A DNA stretch of 31,576 nucleotides from Oscillospiraceae bacterium (GTDB lineage Bacteria > Bacillota > Clostridia > Oscillospirales > Oscillospiraceae), in contig JAEDKB010000001.1 of NCBI GenBank assembly GCA_016296045.1, positions 1 through 31,576 on the forward strand, read 5' to 3'. The translations under genes were made by a program, and so were the position numbers. Position 1 is the stretch's first letter, and each line of letters begins with the position of its first letter. Positions 6,363 to 13,059 of this stretch are shown here, in pieces. The notes below the pieces were generated by a model. That model was not told the DNA's origin, made no database searches, and saw only the letters and a list, made by a program, of their open reading frames with translations.

Positions 6363-7349
6363 TTAATCAATCTTGAGCTTTGAGATCGGATTCGCTTCCG
6401 CGGCAATCTTTTTATCCGTATTTTCTATGTGTGTGTAAATCTGCGTGGTATTGAGGTTTTCATGGCCGAGAACCTCCTGCAGCGTTTTCAGATCAACACC
6501 GTTGGCAAGCATCAATGTTGCGGCAGTATGCCGCAGCTTGTGCGCGGAAAACTGCTCCGGGTCGAGTCCGGCCTCCAGAAGATGCTTTTTTACCAGCCGA
6601 TGAACGGCAGAAACGCTGATTCTGTTGTGATCTCTGGAGCCGAAAAGTGCCTTGTTATCCGATAAAACGACCTTGCTTCGAACTTCCATGTATCGTTCAA
6701 TTGCTTTTCGGCAGGCAGATCCCATATAAACGATACGTTCTTTGTTGCCTTTGCCGACAACCCTGATCCGATCTTCATATACATCGGTGGTATTCAGTCC
6801 AACTAACTCCGACCGACGGATTCCACAGTTCAAAAACAGCATCAGAATGGCAAAATCCCTTGCCTGATTCGGCCCGTCCACAGATTTCAGCAGGGAAGTG
6901 GATTCCTCAAATGTCAGGTATTTTGGCAAAGACTTTCGAATTTTCGGGAATTCCATGTCCTTGACCGGATTATTTACGAGCATTTTTGTGCTGACAGTCA
7001 GATATTTATAAAAGGATTTGATTGCCGAGAGTTTGCGCGCACGGCTGGATGCGCTTATGCCGTTTCCGGAAGATTCCGGGTTATCCCGGTCATTTGCAAG
7101 ATAGGAAAGGAAATCAAATATTTCCGAGGTTGTAATCGAAGAAAGAAACTTGTCATCTACATCTTGAATCGGGATATCATCCAGACAGGTAGAATACGGC
7201 ATTTCGTTTTTCATGAGCTTCATGAACCTTAAAAACATCCGAAGATCCAAATAGTATTCAGAAACGGTTTTCTTAGACTGACCCTTGATTGATTCATGAT
7301 AAGATAAGAAATCCCGCAGAATCTGCGGTGCATCCGCATAGCGTTCCAT
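6363..7349 (-). CDS. xerC: Tyrosine recombinase, XerC-like
   Basis: A 328-residue site-specific recombinase. Residues about 1-110 form the SAM-like core-binding domain (FLSYHESIKGQSKKTVSEYY). The catalytic domain follows with the full set: Arg in LNCGIRRSEL, Lys in VVGKGNKER, HKLRH, and His/Tyr in LGHENLNTTQIYTHI. AAAGGA lies 6 nt before the ATG. It is probably one half of the XerC/XerD pair that resolves chromosome dimers at dif, because a XerD-like gene lies 5 kb away on the same strand. It could instead be an extra Xer paralogue, since the core-binding domain is somewhat longer than usual. A rolling-circle element has inserted 125 bp upstream of its start, leaving its promoter intact. Confidence 0.85.
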   Translation of the reverse strand: MERYADAPQILRDFLSYHESIKGQSKKTVSEYYLDLRMFLRFMKLMKNEMPYSTCLDDIPIQDVDDKFLSSITTSEIFDFLSYLANDRDNPESSGNGISASSRARKLSAIKSFYKYLTVSTKMLVNNPVKDMEFPKIRKSLPKYLTFEESTSLLKSVDGPNQARDFAILMLFLNCGIRRSELVGLNTTDVYEDRIRVVGKGNKERIVYMGSACRKAIERYMEVRSKVVLSDNKALFGSRDHNRISVSAVHRLVKKHLLEAGLDPEQFSAHKLRHTAATLMLANGVDLKTLQEVLGHENLNTTQIYTHIENTDKKIAAEANPISKLKID

Positions 7350-7473: not shown

Positions 7474-7505
7474 AACGCAACAAAATAAAGATGTTTTGAT
7501 GCGTT
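7474..7505. repeat. Left attachment site (attL candidate)
   Basis: Imperfect inverted repeat: AACGCAACAAAAT (7474-7486), 6-nt spacer, GTTTTGATGCGTT (7493-7505). The two arms match at 11 of 13 positions. The first 16 bases are repeated exactly at 10379-10394. The layout matches the core sites of Xer/Int-type tyrosine recombinases, two arms around a short crossover region. Confidence 0.65.
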
Positions 7506-7572
7506 AGGCGCTTCAAAAGCGCGACCAGTCGAGCAGCCCCCGTCCCCGCCGCAGCGAAACCGTGACCTCGCG

Positions 7573-7606
7573 CCCCCCTCTTCCCAGCGGGAAGAGGGGC
7601 GGGGGG
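7573..7606. repeat. Perfect 11-bp GC-rich hairpin
   Basis: CCCCTCTTCCC (7575-7585), AGC loop, GGGAAGAGGGG (7589-7599), flanked by C- and G-runs that extend the pairing. It lies just inside the left end of the element in non-coding sequence; function unknown. Confidence 0.7.
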
Positions 7607-7648
7607 GAGATGGGAGAATCCCCGACTTGGAAATACATGGAAGCATAA

Positions 7649-7683
7649 GAAAAGCCCGCCCGGAAAAATTCGGGCGGGCTTTC
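7649..7683. terminator. Bidirectional terminator-like hairpin inside the element
   Basis: AGCCCGCCCG (7653-7662), 8-nt loop, CGGGCGGGCT (7671-7680). TTCT follows on the plus strand, and TTTCTT on the minus strand. It would block read-through between the host xerC side and the element. Confidence 0.6.
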
Positions 7684-7745
7684 TGCCGTCCCACGGGATA
7701 GGCTGCACACGAGATGCAGCCGGGAACGACCTCGCAAGAACAGCG

Positions 7746-7809
7746 TATCACGGCAGCGCAGATTTGTCAAGGGCATTTCGGAACCCTTTACAAATCAAGC
7801 GCCGTGATA
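7746..7809. repeat. 64-nt segmented hairpin
   Basis: Three successive paired blocks fold on each other: TATCACGGC (7746-7754) with GCCGTGATA (7801-7809), GATTTGT (7761-7767) with ACAAATC (7790-7796), and AAGGG (7769-7773) with CCCTT (7784-7788). The arrangement resembles a single-strand origin, a folded single-stranded recombination site or an RNA stem. It marks the left border of the very GC-rich island. Confidence 0.7.
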
Positions 7810-7819
7810 AAATCGGAGC

Positions 7820-8370
7820 GCAGGGCGACCGGGCCCCGCCGCAGCGGAAACCCGCCGCAGCGAGCGCAGCGGGCGCAGCACGCGAGCACTTGCGCCCGGG
7901 GGCGGGGGCGCAAAGGCTGCCCGAAGGGCAGCCAAAAGCCCCCGGGCGCGGAGGAGCCGGGCCCGAAGCCCCGAAGGGGGCCGCCCAAGGGGGGGCCCGG
8001 CGGGCCGCCGACCCGGAGCACGCGAGGGCAGAGCGGACGAGGACGGCGAAGCAACGCGCAGCCGGGCGAGGAAGCGGCAGACCGAGCAGCGAACGGCGGC
8101 GGCTAGGGGCTGCGGGCCGAAAGACGCAAGCGGGCTCAGCCCGCGCAGCAAGCGAAGGCACGCGCCCCGGAGAAGCCGGGGGGAAGGGCGGCGGCCCGGG
8201 CCCGGAGGCCGAAGGCCAGCGCGGAACGCGCGGAACGGGCCCGCGAAGCGGCGACGGGCGAGCAGGCAACCCGCCGGGCCGCGGACGCGACAGCGGACGC
8301 AAAGGCCCAAGGGCTGCCGAAAGAGCCGCCGGGAAAAGCCGAGGCACGAGGCCCGGCGGCTGCGAGCACT
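7820..8370. other. Very GC-rich structured non-coding island
   Basis: About 550 bp, roughly three-quarters or more G+C by eye, in a genome near 48%. Long open frames exist in several phases on both strands but none has protein-like composition; they are products of stop-codon scarcity. Nested perfect stems are visible. Positions 7892-7903 pair with 7938-7949 over 12 bp, enclosing GGCTGCCC-gaa-GGGCAGCC (7915-7933). Positions 7956-7964 pair with 7993-8001, enclosing GCCCC-GAAG-GGGGC (7968-7981). There are further stems at 8165-8181 and 8207-8217. Many loops are GAA or GAAG. CCCGCCGCAGCG occurs at 7545, 7835 and 7851. It may be a structured RNA or a folded single-strand origin; no promoter was found for it. 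Confidence 0.6.
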
Positions 8371-8379
8371 TCCTCTTGA

Positions 8380-8405
8380 TGTTTGCCGCTTCCATGCGGC
8401 AAACA
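8380..8405. repeat. Perfect 10-bp hairpin at the right edge of the GC-rich island
   Basis: TGTTTGCCGC (8380-8389), loop TTCCAT, GCGGCAAACA (8396-8405). A short palindrome-rich stretch (AGGCGCTTGCGCCT, about 8436-8449) follows. It has no T-run, so it is not an obvious terminator. Confidence 0.65.
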
Positions 8406-8570
8406 AACCGGACGCAAGTGGGGGCAGCACGGCGCAGGCGCTTGCGCCTATGCCGCGCGGAACCCCCGCAGCGCCCGGCGCGTACATCTTCGAGCGTTCA
8501 GCCGGCTTTCGATTCGCGCCGCGGCAGTCCGGCGGCGGTGAAGCGAGTCTATGGGACGCACCCCCCCTTT

Positions 8571-8587
8571 ACTTGATAATAGGACAG
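8571..8587 (+). promoter_or_regulatory. Candidate double-strand origin (Rep nick site)
   Basis: CTTGATAATA at 8572-8581, 20 nt before the rep start codon. Rolling-circle plasmids of the pC194/pUB110 group are nicked within CTTGATA, and the phiX174 origin carries CAACTTGATA. The motif, its position next to rep, and the YxxxY-type Rep agree with each other. Cleavage would be expected between G and A. No experiment is implied; the motif alone is short. Confidence 0.6.
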
Positions 8588-8600
8588 TATTCCGTCATGG

Positions 8601-9401
8601 ATGGCAGCCATGGCATACAGGCCGAATACTGGCTCAGAACTTCGACACAACACAAAGTGCATAATCTTCCCGGATGGCAGCCGCGAATATCTTTGGTGCG
8701 ATAAGCCTATATTCGGGCTTTCCGGTTGGGAAGAGTCCAATAAATGGGACACTTGCAAATCAACCCGGAGAAAGAGAGAAAGGGGAGATTCAAGCCCGGA
8801 CGCGACTGACCGGGCGCAGCGACGCGCGAAGGCTCGCGTCCATGTTTTGGCGATGGCGAATGAATTTGACTGGTTCGTGACGCTGACATTATCGAGTGAC
8901 AAGATTGACCGCTATGACATGGACGCGATCACGCGCAAGCTGAATGTGTGGCTTGACAATCAGGTTCGCCGGAAGGGATTGCGGTACGTCCTTGTGCCGG
9001 AGCGGCATAAGGATGGAGCAATCCATTTCCATGGCTTCTTCAATGACGCGCTGCCCGCGACAGATAGCGGGCATACAGACCGCGCCGGGCACCCGATATT
9101 CAACCTGCCCGGTTGGACGCTCGGTTTCTCCACGGCGATTCGGCTTTATGGCAGCTACCGCAGTGCGGTCGGCTATGTGTGTAAGTACATAGGCAAGCAG
9201 GGCGAAAAGCCCGGCGGCAGATGGTATTACAGCGGCGGCGATTTGAAAGAGCCTGTGTATAAGTTTGTGGATATGTTCCGGGATGACCTTCCCGCAGACG
9301 CCTACACCTTCCGTGTAGACGATGCGGGAATGGCGATGGCGAAATGGACGGAAGGGGGTGACGATGATGCATTGTTCTCTGGAATTGAGGAAGAGGCTTA
9401 G
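8601..9401 (+). CDS. HUH rolling-circle replication initiator (Rep, phiX174 gpA/G2P-like)
   Basis: A 266-residue Rep that should nick one strand of the element's origin and stay joined to the 5' end through a tyrosine. All three superfamily I motifs are visible: motif I WFVTLTLS (from residue 91), motif II IHFHGFF with the metal-binding His142 and His144, and motif III GYVCKYIGK with two tyrosines, 192 and 196, spaced YxxxY as in phiX174 gpA. There is no helicase domain. The N-terminal 80 residues are basic and probably bind DNA. The start is uncertain: no good Shine-Dalgarno sequence lies before the ATG at 8601 or the in-frame ATG at 8610. The nick-site motif lies immediately upstream. The 3' end overlaps the next gene by 38 nt. 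The family occurs in small ssDNA phages, inovirus-like prophages and Firmicutes plasmids. Confidence 0.88.
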   Translation: MAAMAYRPNTGSELRHNTKCIIFPDGSREYLWCDKPIFGLSGWEESNKWDTCKSTRRKRERGDSSPDATDRAQRRAKARVHVLAMANEFDWFVTLTLSSDKIDRYDMDAITRKLNVWLDNQVRRKGLRYVLVPERHKDGAIHFHGFFNDALPATDSGHTDRAGHPIFNLPGWTLGFSTAIRLYGSYRSAVGYVCKYIGKQGEKPGGRWYYSGGDLKEPVYKFVDMFRDDLPADAYTFRVDDAGMAMAKWTEGGDDDALFSGIEEEA

Positions 9402-9567
9402 AGAGGTGGAATACCACCTCGACCATGCAGGAGCAAAGGCTTCCCTTTGCAGCGGCGATTGCATGACCGATGAAGAATCGAAGTGCATTGTCTACGCGAG
9501 CGCGTGGGAGGATGTGCAGAAAGCATACGACACGCTCATGAGCATTTTTGCTCAAATCAATGGGTAA
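9364..9567 (+). CDS. Small helical protein of unknown function
   Basis: 67 residues, starting MMHCSLELRKRLREVEYHLD. It starts inside the 3' end of rep (38-nt overlap) behind a G-rich ribosome binding site (GGAAGGGGGTG), so it is probably translated by coupling to Rep. It is predicted mostly alpha-helical and soluble, with three cysteines (MHCS, SLCSGDC) that do not form a classic zinc motif. I do not recognise a family. Its place between rep and the integrase suggests an accessory or regulatory role in replication or excision, but this is position-based inference only. Confidence 0.6.
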   Translation: MMHCSLELRKRLREVEYHLDHAGAKASLCSGDCMTDEESKCIVYASAWEDVQKAYDTLMSIFAQING

Positions 9568-9579
9568 GAATTTTCGCCC

Positions 9580-9605
9580 GGTTGACAATTTAGGGATTGT
9601 CAACC
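9580..9605. repeat. Perfect 10-bp inverted repeat before the integrase
   Basis: GGTTGACAAT (9580-9589), TTAGGG loop, ATTGTCAACC (9596-9605). GGTTGACAA recurs at 10218-10226 beyond the integrase gene. It could be an operator or a binding site for the element's own protein. Confidence 0.6.
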
Positions 9606-9616
9606 CCGCGAAAAAA

Positions 9617-9656
9617 TGCCCGCCCGCGCCCGGTTTCCGGGCGATCGCGGCGGGCA
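9617..9656. repeat. GC-rich hairpin upstream of the integrase
   Basis: Outer stem TGCCCGCC (9617-9624) / GGCGGGCA (9649-9656), inner stem CGCCCGG (9627-9633) / CCGGGCG (9637-9643) with a TTT loop. There is no T-run, so it is more likely an attenuating or origin structure than a classic terminator. Confidence 0.65.
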
Positions 9657-9691
9657 TGGCTGACAAGAAAAAGAGGGGAGAGAACGAATGA

Positions 9692-10210
9692 GTGAAAACG
9701 GAATACCTGTTGAACAGAGAGGTAGACCGGGTTTTAGCTGCGCTCATGCCTGTCAACCGGCTGGTCATGCGTGTGGCGCTGCATACCGGTTTACGGGTTG
9801 GGGATGTTTTGGCGCTCCGCACGGCAAGCCTTGCACCGCGCTTTTGGGTGACAGAGCAAAAGACCGGGAAACGGAAACTTGTGGGGCTGCCGAAAGAGCT
9901 GCTTGAAGAGCTGCGCGACCAAGCCGGGTATGTTTGGGTGTTTGAGCATCAGGCAGACCCGGAAAAGCACAGAACCCGTCAAACTGTTTGGAAAGATGTA
10001 AAAAGGGCTGCAAAGGCTTTTCGGCTGCCGCAGAACGTGGCCCCGCATAGTTTCCGCAAAGTCTACGCCGTAAAGCTGCTGGAAAAGTACGGAGATATCG
10101 AGAAAGTCCGCAGAAATCTGAACCATAGCAGCGAAACGGTTACCATGATATATGCCATGGCTGACCAACTTTTTACGGCAAAGTACCAAAAAAAGCCTCA
10201 TCATGTGTAA
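9692..10210 (+). CDS. Minimal tyrosine integrase (catalytic domain only)
   Basis: A 172-residue tyrosine recombinase, about half the usual length of 300 or more. It starts directly with the catalytic domain and has no recognisable core-binding or arm-binding domain. The active-site set is complete: Arg35 in TGLRVGDVL, a beta-hairpin Lys near residues 57-61 (KTGKRK), His119-x-x-Arg122 in PHSFRKVYA, His145 in LNHSSE and the nucleophile Tyr154 in MIYAMAD. The start is a GTG at 9692, 11 nt after GGGGAG. An ATG at 9688 is better spaced but opens another frame (71 codons), so initiation is unusual. It is likely the enzyme acting at the flanking repeats, perhaps with help from host XerC/XerD. I see no frameshift that would restore an N-terminal domain. 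Confidence 0.8.
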   Translation: MKTEYLLNREVDRVLAALMPVNRLVMRVALHTGLRVGDVLALRTASLAPRFWVTEQKTGKRKLVGLPKELLEELRDQAGYVWVFEHQADPEKHRTRQTVWKDVKRAAKAFRLPQNVAPHSFRKVYAVKLLEKYGDIEKVRRNLNHSSETVTMIYAMADQLFTAKYQKKPHHV

Positions 10211-10218
10211 ACTGATGG

Positions 10219-10273
10219 TTGACAAATGCCGCTCCATTCGCTAGACTGAAAGCAGTCTAGGAAAGGAGCGGCA
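10219..10273. promoter_or_regulatory. Nested hairpin carrying a promoter-like sequence
   Basis: Outer stem TGCCGCTCC (10227-10235) / GGAGCGGCA (10265-10273), inner stem CTAGACT (10241-10247) / AGTCTAG (10254-10260). TTGACA (10219-10224), 17 nt, TAGACT (10242-10247) reads as a promoter through the fold. In some rolling-circle plasmids a folded single-stranded promoter is used by RNA polymerase to prime the second strand, so this is a candidate single-strand origin. The alternative is a simple promoter or operator. Confidence 0.5.
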
Positions 10274-10319
10274 CACTGTCGATTATCAGAGTAGAGCGCG
10301 ACATTACAACCGGGCGCGA

Positions 10320-10350
10320 AACGCGGCAAAACAAGTATTTTGTTTGCGTT
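10320..10350. repeat. Second core-like inverted repeat near the right end
   Basis: AACGCGGCAAAAC (10320-10332) faces ATTTTGTTTGCGTT (10337-10350). It is a degenerate copy of the attachment core, 59 bp left of the better copy. It could be an accessory integrase site or a relic of an earlier insertion. Confidence 0.45.
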
Positions 10351-10378
10351 CGTTTCCGCTTTTTCTTTGCTTTATCGG

Positions 10379-10408
10379 AACGCAACAAAATAAAAATTTT
10401 GTTGCGTT
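10379..10408. repeat. Right attachment site (attR candidate)
   Basis: Perfect inverted repeat: AACGCAACAAAAT (10379-10391), AAAA, ATTTTGTTGCGTT (10396-10408). Its first 16 bases are identical to the left site. The right arm doubles as the -35 region of a promoter-like sequence. Confidence 0.65.
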
Positions 10409-10429: not shown

Positions 10430-11095
10430 AACGGCAATAGAATAAGTAAATCTATAAATACGGCCTTTCGGCATATGAATCAGCATGACCGCAAGCGTGG
10501 GAATCTGTATGCTCTCGATGTTGATAAGAATCCGTTTATGTATGATTGCTGCAATGAATTCTCCGGCTGAACGAAATATAATAATTCAATGTCTTCTTCG
10601 ATAATTCTGTTAAATCCATCAGATTATCTTACATAAATATAACTCAAAGTCTGGGAGACTTTTTTCTGATTAACCCGTTGTTTTGGGAGGATTTCATATA
10701 TGATTCTGATCGCTTCACTGTATGCTTGTTTATATACAATCTGATGTATGTTTCTATTTGCTAGCAGAATTGTAATGCGTCTTTTCGATCAATTCGAAAC
10801 AGAGCTGTTTTTTGACATCTTTGAAAAATTAGTCATGTGACTATCAGGATCCTTAAATTTTGCAAAAGTTGTATTGAAGGAGATTTTGTTGCGTTCGTTT
10901 ATATATTACAGTTCTGTTATTTTGAATTGTGTGACTGATTCCCGGATAACGGATAAATATTCAATTAAATTGTTGAATAATCAACTGTAATATGCAAATA
11001 TATTCCACTTTGATCAACATAATTTGTGATATATAAGCTTGGTTTTGCTGATTTCTCACTGCACACTTCCCTTCTGACTTTTTACTGCAAATATG
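10409..11095. other. AT-rich gap between the element and pfkA
   Basis: About 690 bp without a convincing gene. It holds a 31-codon ATG frame at 10475-10570 (MNQHDRKRGNLYALDVDKN...) with no ribosome binding site, a terminator-like hairpin at 10646-10664, and an isolated half of the attachment core, ATTTTGTTGCGTT, at 10883-10895. The rest is low-complexity AT-rich DNA, possibly decayed mobile-element sequence. Confidence 0.5.
10646..10664 (+). terminator. Terminator-like hairpin in the AT-rich gap
   Basis: AAAGTCT, GGG loop, AGACTTT, then more T residues (10646-10664). The stem is short but the T-tract is good. Confidence 0.5.
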
Positions 11096-11124: not shown

Positions 11125-11150
11125 ACGAAAAAAACTTAGGGGTGATTTTT

Positions 11151-12131
11151 ATGGAACAGGCAGTAAAACGAATCGGTGTTCTTACTTCGGGCGGTGACGC
11201 GCCGGGAATGAACGCAGCAGTTCGTTCCGTTGTTCGCTCTGCTATCGCAAGAGGTATTGAATGCATTGGTATTCGCAGAGGTCTGAATGGCCTGATTACC
11301 GGCGATTTTATCAAGCTGGATGCTGACAGCGTTGCACATACGATCAATCGCGGAGGCACGATTCTGTATACCGCCCGCAGTCAGGAGTTTATGACGCTGG
11401 AAGGTCAGAAAAAGGCAGCTGCAACTTGCAAACTGCTTGGCCTTGAGGGAATTGTTGGCATTGGCGGAGATGGAACCTTCCGAGGTCTGATGGCGCTTTC
11501 TAAACAAGGAATCAGCGTTGCCGGCATCCCGGCAACCATTGATAACGACATTGTCTGCACAGACTATACCATCGGTTTCGATACTGCGGCCAATACAGCC
11601 GTAGAAGCCATCGACCGACTTCGTGATACCATGCAGTCACATGAGCGCTGTTCCGTTGTAGAAGTCATGGGACGAAATGCCGGACATCTTGCCCTCTATG
11701 TCGGTCTGGCAACGGGTGCAACTGTTGTGCTTGTTCCGGAAGAACCAGTGAATTTCAATGAAGGCGTAGTTGAGCGGATTCGTCAGGCTCGCCTTGCAGG
11801 CAAGACTCATTTCATGATCGTTGTAGCGGAAGGTGCAGGCAGCGCCGTTGAAATCGGCGAAAAGATCCATGAAACACTCGGCCTTGACCCACGCGTAACG
11901 ATTCTGGGCCATATCCAGCGCGGCGGCACACCGACAGCAAGAGACCGTGTCATGGCCACACGCATGGGCTATCACGCCGTAGAATGTCTTGCTGCAGGAA
12001 AAACAAACCGCGTTATTTGCGCAAGAAACGGTCAGATGGTTGATTTGGACATTGCCGAAGGCTTAAAAATGAAAAAAGGAATCAACGAGCAGCAGTATGA
12101 AGTACTGAAGGCTATGACCGGCATTGAATAA
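11151..12131 (+). CDS. pfkA: 6-phosphofructokinase, ATP-type
   Basis: Phosphorylates fructose 6-phosphate to fructose 1,6-bisphosphate, the committed step of glycolysis. 326 residues, the normal bacterial PfkA length. Family motifs in order: nucleotide loop TSGGDAPGMNA, RRGLNGLI, RGGTILYTARS, GIGGDGTFRG, PATIDNDIVCTDYTIGFDTA with the catalytic Asp, EVMGRNAGHLAL, and LGHIQRGGTPTARDR. The GGDG segment and lack of Lys before TIDND indicate ATP rather than pyrophosphate as donor. The usual Gly of PGTIDND is Ala here, a mild variation. The ATG at 11151 follows AGGGGTG; a GTG at 11142 is inside that ribosome binding site. The gene stands alone, with its own promoter and terminator; pyruvate kinase, often its partner, is not in view. 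Confidence 0.96.
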   Translation: MEQAVKRIGVLTSGGDAPGMNAAVRSVVRSAIARGIECIGIRRGLNGLITGDFIKLDADSVAHTINRGGTILYTARSQEFMTLEGQKKAAATCKLLGLEGIVGIGGDGTFRGLMALSKQGISVAGIPATIDNDIVCTDYTIGFDTAANTAVEAIDRLRDTMQSHERCSVVEVMGRNAGHLALYVGLATGATVVLVPEEPVNFNEGVVERIRQARLAGKTHFMIVVAEGAGSAVEIGEKIHETLGLDPRVTILGHIQRGGTPTARDRVMATRMGYHAVECLAAGKTNRVICARNGQMVDLDIAEGLKMKKGINEQQYEVLKAMTGIE

Positions 12132-12149: not shown

Positions 12150-12178
12150 AGCCCCTCCGTTACCGGAGGGGCTACATT
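12150..12178. terminator. Terminator between pfkA and xerD
   Basis: AGCCCCTCCG (12150-12159), TTAC, CGGAGGGGCT (12164-12173), then ACATTT. On the minus strand TTTTGG follows. It serves both convergent genes. Confidence 0.85.
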
Positions 12179-13059
12179 TATGCCTTGGGATGATACTTAT
12201 TATATACGGATTTCAGGTTCTGCTTCACAAGCTGCGCATAAACCTGCGTAGAAGAAATATCGCTGTGACCAAGCATTTCCTGAATGGAGCGAAGATCTGC
12301 ACCGTTTTCAAGAAGATGCGCGGCAAAGCTGTGACGCAAGGTATGCGGTGTGATATCCTTGTCAATCTTTGCCTTTTCCTGATAGTACTTGATGATCTTC
12401 CAAAAACCCTGACGGCTCATGCGCTCACCGGAAACATTTACAAAAAGTGAATGCTCCGTTGGGATCGCAATCATTCTGGGGCGAACAGTTTCGATATACT
12501 CTCTCAGCGCAGAAACTGCAGCGGGATAAATCGGAATGATTCTGGACTTCTCTCCGTTTTCGCAGCGGATAAAGCTTCCGGGAATACTGACATCGTCAAT
12601 GTTTAATCCGATCAGTTCAGAAACACGGATACCGGTGGCATAAAGCACCTCAAGCATCGCTTTATCGCGGCAGCCTTTCATATCTGCGCTTTTCGGCTGC
12701 TCAAGAAGCAGTTCTACTTCTTTGCCGGTCAGAATCTGCGGCAGCTTCTTTTCTGCTTTTTCGACCTTGATGTTGTGAACTGGATTCTGCTCAAGTTCTT
12801 CCACATCGAGTGCAAAATTATAAAGACTCTTCAGCGAGGCCAGCGATCTTGCAATCGTAGAAGCAGACTTCCCTACATCATGCAGGTACTGCATATAGCC
12901 ATTGACAGTCTGTGCATTTGCATCCAGAATGTCGACATCAACAGTCTCAAGATATGACGCATACTGTCTGAGATCCCTCAAATAAGAGGAAATCGTATTA
13001 GACGATGCGTGTTTGATATGAATGAGATAATCTTCATATCGCGCAATAATATTGACCAT
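12178..13059 (-). CDS. xerD: Tyrosine recombinase XerD-like
   Basis: A 293-residue site-specific recombinase of standard XerD length, likely partner of the XerC-like gene for resolving chromosome dimers at dif. The N-terminal SAM-like domain spans about 1-95 (YEDYLIHIKHASSNTISSYL). The catalytic residues are Arg in YATGIRVSEL, Lys in ENGEKSRI, HTLRHSF, and His/Tyr in LGHSDISSTQVYAQL. GGAAGG lies 8 nt before the ATG. XerC and XerD assignments follow length and general resemblance only; the two could be swapped. Together with the XerC-like gene it flanks the inserted replicon. Confidence 0.88.
   Translation of the reverse strand: MVNIIARYEDYLIHIKHASSNTISSYLRDLRQYASYLETVDVDILDANAQTVNGYMQYLHDVGKSASTIARSLASLKSLYNFALDVEELEQNPVHNIKVEKAEKKLPQILTGKEVELLLEQPKSADMKGCRDKAMLEVLYATGIRVSELIGLNIDDVSIPGSFIRCENGEKSRIIPIYPAAVSALREYIETVRPRMIAIPTEHSLFVNVSGERMSRQGFWKIIKYYQEKAKIDKDITPHTLRHSFAAHLLENGADLRSIQEMLGHSDISSTQVYAQLVKQNLKSVYNKYHPKA

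Follow-up and report, generated by a model that had tools for sequence, protein, structure and literature searches.

The 31,576-nt stretch of contig JAEDKB010000001.1 from an Oscillospiraceae bacterium (the window) contains a 2.9-kb insert at positions 7474-10408. This element encodes a Rep protein of family PF23343, a 67-amino-acid (aa) open reading frame (ORF) and a 172-aa tyrosine recombinase consisting of a catalytic domain only (Int), and also carries a GC-rich island, all flanked by attachment (att) repeats. Initial annotation of the locus had proposed an integrated rolling-circle replicon with a minimal integrase. The element is real and, on our best reading, more specific than that: a plasmid, probably from a gut bacterium, that brings its own minimal recombinase and is inserted at the likely dif, the chromosomal palindrome at which joined chromosomes are predicted to be resolved. 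The telling part is a second dif-like site, S2 (10319-10351, plus strand), which was absent from the initial list of parts.

Genes and non-coding features of the element

The rep gene (8601-9401, plus strand) encodes an HUH-type replication initiator matching PF23343 (E = 2.1e-14), which bears out the proposed rolling-circle type. Directly 5′ of rep lies a conserved box, TACTTGATA...GGAC..TATTCC.TCA (8570-8597, plus strand), whose TACTTGATA part precedes rep in 27 of 31 sequences, the window counted, and which is likely the nick or origin region of Rep. The nick motif first noted beside rep, CTTGATAATA, overlaps this box, but its exact longer form is not conserved: the pattern TTGATA[AG]TA matched the window only among the 31 sequences. 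Overlapping the end of rep is the 67-aa ORF (9364-9567, plus strand), which has one other known relative, 78% identical. It was considered as a conserved partner of Rep and Int and rejected, with that single relative and none confirmed in IMG/VR.

Between attL and the box lies a T-poor, non-coding island (7506-8569, with no strand assigned) of 71% G+C and 8% T. Both strands of the part at 7790-8570 fold better than 20 shuffles each (z = -3.9 and -4.2), but a conserved structure is undemonstrated: a large conserved RNA was sought without an Rfam match, and the alignment with two relatives was too poor for a covariation test. The island diverges rapidly between relatives. Its T content is 7-17% in 12 of the 15 elements compared, while the more distant L032, L034 and L035 have 20-40%.

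As first described, the element has no recognizable capsid or mobilization gene. The family scan gave no match to a capsid or morphogenesis gene among its proteins, and no relaxase or mobilization gene was recognized in the three proteins scanned. Rep-like relaxases serve some integrative and mobilizable elements (PMC5704250), so Rep itself might act as one here.

The int gene (9692-10210, plus strand, GTG start) encodes the catalytic-only integrase that had been claimed, with residues 6-158 of 172 matching PF00589 (E = 2.3e-21). The catalytic set is complete (R35, K57, H119xxR122, H145 and Y154); a 13-row alignment shows no variation at R35, K57, H119, R122 or Y154 and very little at H145. 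A search of a protein collection found 4462 relatives, and 119 of the 120 listed are 171-189 aa long, in a search that admitted candidates of 95-301 aa only, so that longer relatives could not show up. The lengths of these relatives suggest that the missing N-terminal domain is characteristic of the family and not the result of damage. The fold predicted by AlphaFold from 13 sequences (mean predicted local distance difference test score 75.8) matches an integron integrase best (2a3v) and also matches XerH, XerA and the isolated catalytic cores of the P2, HP1 and lambda integrases. The idea that Int is a shortened copy of the adjacent host Xer found no support, the two sharing 26% identity over 43 residues (E = 0.004).

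The insertion site is likely the host dif

The right boundary, attR (10379-10408, plus strand), is a perfect 30-bp palindrome with a 13+4+13 architecture: an outer arm, ACAAAAT, the central AAAA, ATTTTGT and the second outer arm. The left boundary, attL (7474-7505, plus strand), shares its left arm with attR and continues into an 8-nt element-type center (TAAAGATG) and an imperfect right arm. The 16-bp core repeats reported earlier, starting at 7474 and 10379, are indeed identical; they are not, however, a private core of the element but part of these longer sites, and belong to what is likely a host dif, regenerated at attR. Downstream of int, ACAAAATNNNNATTTTGT occurs within 2.5 kb in 29 of 39 relatives. 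The outer arms of the palindrome vary by locus (AACGC, AACTC, AATTG, AATTA and others), with symmetry largely kept.

The exact 18-bp core of the palindrome was found once per genome in 172 of 300 genomes of one family, and a reversed control in 2. With a looser palindrome pattern, 19 of 20 host genomes had one or two matches and one had none; the reversed control had none. A relative of the host xer gene in the window (54-75%) starts 37-530 bp from the palindrome in 19 of 20 genomes, and 32 kb away in G035. In all four genomes whose one contig covers the stated genome size the palindrome lies about halfway around the chromosome from dnaA (at 0.55, 0.51, 0.47 and 0.57); in a fifth genome, G084, dnaA is on a different contig from the palindrome. 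Comparing 10 kb on either side, GC skew falls from left to right across the palindrome in 20 of 20 genomes, with positive values on the left in 16 and negative values on the right in 18; the window's own difference is weak (-0.011 to -0.029). Being single-copy, xer-linked, opposite dnaA and at a drop in GC skew, the palindrome is likely the chromosomal dif, a role assigned here from sequence features. For 97 of 100 Firmicutes a dif was predicted in a survey from 2011, and the part of it available to us does not show this palindromic form (PMC3025954). Our search of the openly accessible literature, which leaves subscription journals and preprints outside, returned no paper on an xer-linked palindromic dif in Oscillospiraceae.

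The palindrome could instead be some other single-copy site used as attB, for example an operator for the neighboring xer gene. In favor of this, the site is upstream of xer and perfectly symmetrical, which is uncommon among XerC/XerD sites; the exact core is missing from 128 of 300 genomes; and there is a second full-length Xer (the XerD equivalog). Its position opposite dnaA, the GC-skew drop and its conservation nevertheless make such an identity very improbable, as does the xer-linked layout, which recalls the single-recombinase systems XerS/difSL and XerH/difH, where dif adjoins its own xer gene (PMC5357621, PMC9765430). Like these, the present site would be a dif near the terminus with the host xer beside it; unlike them, it is perfectly palindromic and accompanied by a second, XerD-type gene.

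The host xer itself (6363-7349, minus strand) encodes a two-domain protein of 328 aa and starts 125 bp from attL; its best NCBIfam match is XerC, below that family's cut-off. To the right of the element are a 6-phosphofructokinase gene (11142-12131) and the full-length XerD equivalog (12178-13059), so that two full-length Xer-type genes flank the element within 5 kb. A second Xer gene often lies within tens of kb of the palindrome in relatives as well. In the window xer is on the attL side, whereas in G001-G004 it is beside the palindrome, on the attR side, and the polarity of AAAA relative to xer in the window is the minority form, found in 3 of 19 linked genomes (G104, G118 and G248). Separately, an exact 13-bp half of the palindrome (ATTTTGTTGCGTT) lies at 10883-10895 (within 10878-10900), 475 bp beyond attR in AT-rich non-coding DNA, and is perhaps a scar of an earlier insertion.

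Empty sites do exist. Rep together with a close Int occupies 3 of the 31 sites fetched; the other 28 show no such pair in the stretch examined, which in some cases is short. One filled locus, L001, can be set beside an empty one, L148: identity is 90.3% (2964 columns) in the left flank and 88.9% (3005 columns) in the right flank, and in L148 the palindrome stands alone between the shared flanks.

Junctions and the crossover position

Pairs of attL and attR were compared for the window and 14 other loci, L027 and L032 being weaker calls. In 15 of 15 the palindrome is at attR while attL carries another center; by sequence, the likely dif is thus left intact. The attL center is longer than 6 nt in 11 pairs, 6 nt in L014, L027 and L028, and 2 nt in L032. 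Tandem copies occur at two loci, with a repeat unit of 3417 bp in L001 and 4047 bp in L035; in both the middle junction is of the attL type. Together, the att pairs and the tandem junctions place the crossover at the inner edge of the left arm, as read from the sequences of the products.

These junctions bear on whether the element is a conventional integrative plasmid, in which Int would join a double-stranded attP to dif by two strand exchanges and S2 would be an accessory or dimer-resolution site. In its favor, Int has all its catalytic residues, tandem copies would also be expected from ordinary integrases, and a dif-like second site could serve dimer resolution. The attP center, on the other hand, has a different sequence from the host center in the 15 pairs and a different length in 12 of them, which is awkward for a shared overlap, and the pairing of S2 with attP described below extends beyond the shared core. 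We consider this explanation rather unlikely.

S2 is complementary to attP

S2 is inverted with respect to attP and complementary to it. Pairing was measured between attP and the 200 bp before it at 19 junctions, with 100 shuffles each; 13 junctions were computed joins of the two ends of integrated copies and 6 were natural (two tandems and four circles). The S2:attP pairing energy beats the best of the shuffles in 18 of 19. Two further circles raise the count to 20 of 21 junctions: the pairing energy is -31.0 kcal/mol in L011 and -25.5 kcal/mol in L033, while the best shuffle reached -19.3 in either case. A junction's own attP was the best of the 19 partners for its upstream region in 15 cases, and its own upstream region was the best of 19 for its attP in 15. 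By eye, the pairing is present in the minimum-energy DNA fold at 16 of 19 junctions, and the attP strand usually leaves 2-6 nt unpaired (none in L032).

Any two dif-like sites share a core, and therefore bases outside the core were also scored alone. Fifteen non-redundant junctions gave 107 outer-base matches against 65.7 (s.d. 6.1) for permuted partners, a value that 0 of 20,000 permutations reached; all 18 junctions with S2 gave 131 against 80.7. L027, having no S2, was dropped from this scoring, and the near-duplicates L005, L012 and L022 were dropped from the smaller set. The pairing often reaches into the element-specific flank.

Relatives, circular forms and prevalence

A scan of genome contigs found 39 loci with an Int relative, mostly in Oscillospiraceae and other Clostridia by title. 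A Rep relative lies upstream of int on the same strand in 34; of the other five, L026, L030 and L031 have no Rep match, int is only partly present in L025, and L013 begins close to int. Thus, of the three genes proposed to travel together, Rep and Int do so, while the 67-aa ORF, with its single relative, does not. At one locus, L023, an S2-like site directly follows int although about 7 kb separate int from the palindrome downstream, and a second insert may lie in between.

Circular forms, suggested at the outset, were found for relatives. Exact terminal repeats of 141, 116 and 141 bp in L011, L026 and L033 give circular assemblies of 3583, 3486 and 2895 bp, and L011 and L033 hold both Rep and Int. 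L033 is filed under a Paludibacteraceae bin, which is probably a binning error. Int relatives at 38-62% identity are also carried by seven circular plasmid records of 2.2-3.8 kb from rat caecum. The study behind these records obtained the expected inverse PCR product from 38 of 40 tested circles, which may or may not have included these seven; in the part of it available, integrase domains are counted and dif is not discussed (PMC3913684). Pattern matching found pairs of dif-like sites in four of the seven, a further likeness to the element.

The rat circles differ in their Rep families where these are recognized. The element's Rep profile had no match in the seven (E up to 1, ORFs of at least 60 aa). 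Coding sequences from six of them (all but L045) gave three matches to Rep_1, one to Rep_OBD/RepB, one to RepL and one with no match; two of the Rep_1 proteins additionally have weak PF23343 matches that fall short of the family cut-off. We take these families to be rolling-circle initiators.

Within the 300 family genomes, 7 carry Int (E up to 1e-25). In 6 of them int is followed by the palindrome after 181-264 bp of the same contig; the remaining copy, in G070, sits at the end of its contig. Relatives in the protein collection number 3261 for Rep besides the 4462 for Int, and many of those listed are on contigs of a few kb; small circles may escape genome binning.

A model for insertion as folded single-stranded DNA

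We hold with moderate confidence that the element is an integrated rolling-circle-type plasmid that entered the likely host dif as single-stranded DNA (ssDNA), folded by the pairing of S2 with attP, with the catalytic-only Int exchanging one strand. To the anatomy, target and crossover position given above, this model would add the single-stranded form, the single exchange and Int as the catalyst. First, Rep would nick near 8570-8597 and generate a single-stranded circle, as members of its family suggest. S2 would then pair with attP to form a bulged dif-like duplex with a few nucleotides of the attP center unpaired, a predicted fold that the comparison between elements supports. Cleavage would follow at the left arm's inner edge, the position indicated by attL and attR, with Int acting by itself or together with the adjacent host Xer. 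Finally, replication would complete the reaction and yield the observed products, an element-type attL and an intact palindrome at attR, which would keep dimer resolution in place.

Several observations weigh against this model. The strongest comes from two IMG/VR contigs with a Phage_F capsid gene, L141 and L146, which carry the palindrome close to one of their ends and lack any relative of this Int; toward the other end of L141 lie two dif-like sites, 80 bp from each other. Such contigs suggest that the host Xer may suffice as catalyst, with Int aiding or directing it. No site pair was found by pattern in three of the seven rat circles. L027 lacks S2 and fails the shuffle test, L028 passes narrowly, and the minimum-energy folds of L014, L027 and L028 do not contain the S2:attP pairing. 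The attP center exceeds the 6 nt of the host in only 11 of 15 pairs, and the one-sided centers could also be explained by selection for an intact dif. The excess of outer-base matches may come partly from host-type arms, in a permutation test that ignores lineage.

Catalysis of insertion by the host Xer is the mechanism known for integrative mobile elements exploiting Xer (IMEX), and Int might then activate Xer, promote excision or resolve plasmid dimers. In addition to the capsid-bearing contigs, the xer gene adjoining the site fits this explanation. It accounts less well for the occurrence of Int with the same palindrome or site pair on circles of other Rep families, or for the catalytic residues that Int keeps, which suggest that its activity at the site is selected, and we judge it unlikely. 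Like IMEX, the element sits at what is probably the host dif by position, copy number and xer linkage, with a dif that is intact by sequence regenerated; unlike IMEX, which have no dedicated recombinase, it encodes one with all its catalytic residues.

Comparison with known systems

For the model of ssDNA insertion, the closest parallel is CTXphi, the cholera-toxin phage, in which attP1 with a 12-nt center and attP2 with a 7-nt center lie in opposite orientation about 90 bp apart (PMC3089051). The element shares with CTXphi its probable insertion at dif, the intact dif on one side, and two nearby inverted dif-like sites, with the longer center at the attP1 counterpart (PMC3089051). In the window these are S2 and attP, the latter with the longer center, and the crossover position is compatible with a single-strand exchange of the CTXphi type. 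In contrast to CTXphi, a filamentous phage without its own recombinase, the element is plasmid-like, encodes a catalytic-only recombinase and occupies an xer-linked palindrome in Clostridia.

The integron integrase IntI acts on folded attC sites. Both systems would thus combine a tyrosine recombinase with a folded single-stranded substrate, predicted in the present case, and 2a3v is the top match of the Int model. Unlike an integron, the element has no attC array or cassettes, its target is likely dif, and its Int lacks the N-terminal domain.

In its HUH Rep, the box near rep and its circular relatives, the element resembles a rolling-circle plasmid. It is unlike an ssDNA phage provirus, having no capsid or morphogenesis gene match, and a phage origin was rejected: an IMG/VR scan with Int gave 27 pattern matches, none of them confirmed. 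In the same database, a 6.5-kb contig with a PF23343 Rep has a dif-like core with a second dif-like site about 122 bp before it (L137:5319-5470).

A broader proposal, plausible but more tentative, is that a catalytic-only recombinase and twin inverted dif-like sites form a portable module, which would let unrelated rolling-circle plasmids of gut Clostridia insert ssDNA into dif by their own enzyme. Alongside integrons and CTXphi, it would make up a third type of recombination on folded ssDNA and the one with the smallest enzyme. The element would bring together two known ideas, insertion at dif and folded single-stranded att sites, in a very small plasmid that encodes a minimal recombinase of its own, and Int with its twin att sites offers a two-part system for asking whether a catalytic-only tyrosine recombinase works on ssDNA. 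For the host family, it points to an xer-linked palindromic dif in Oscillospiraceae.

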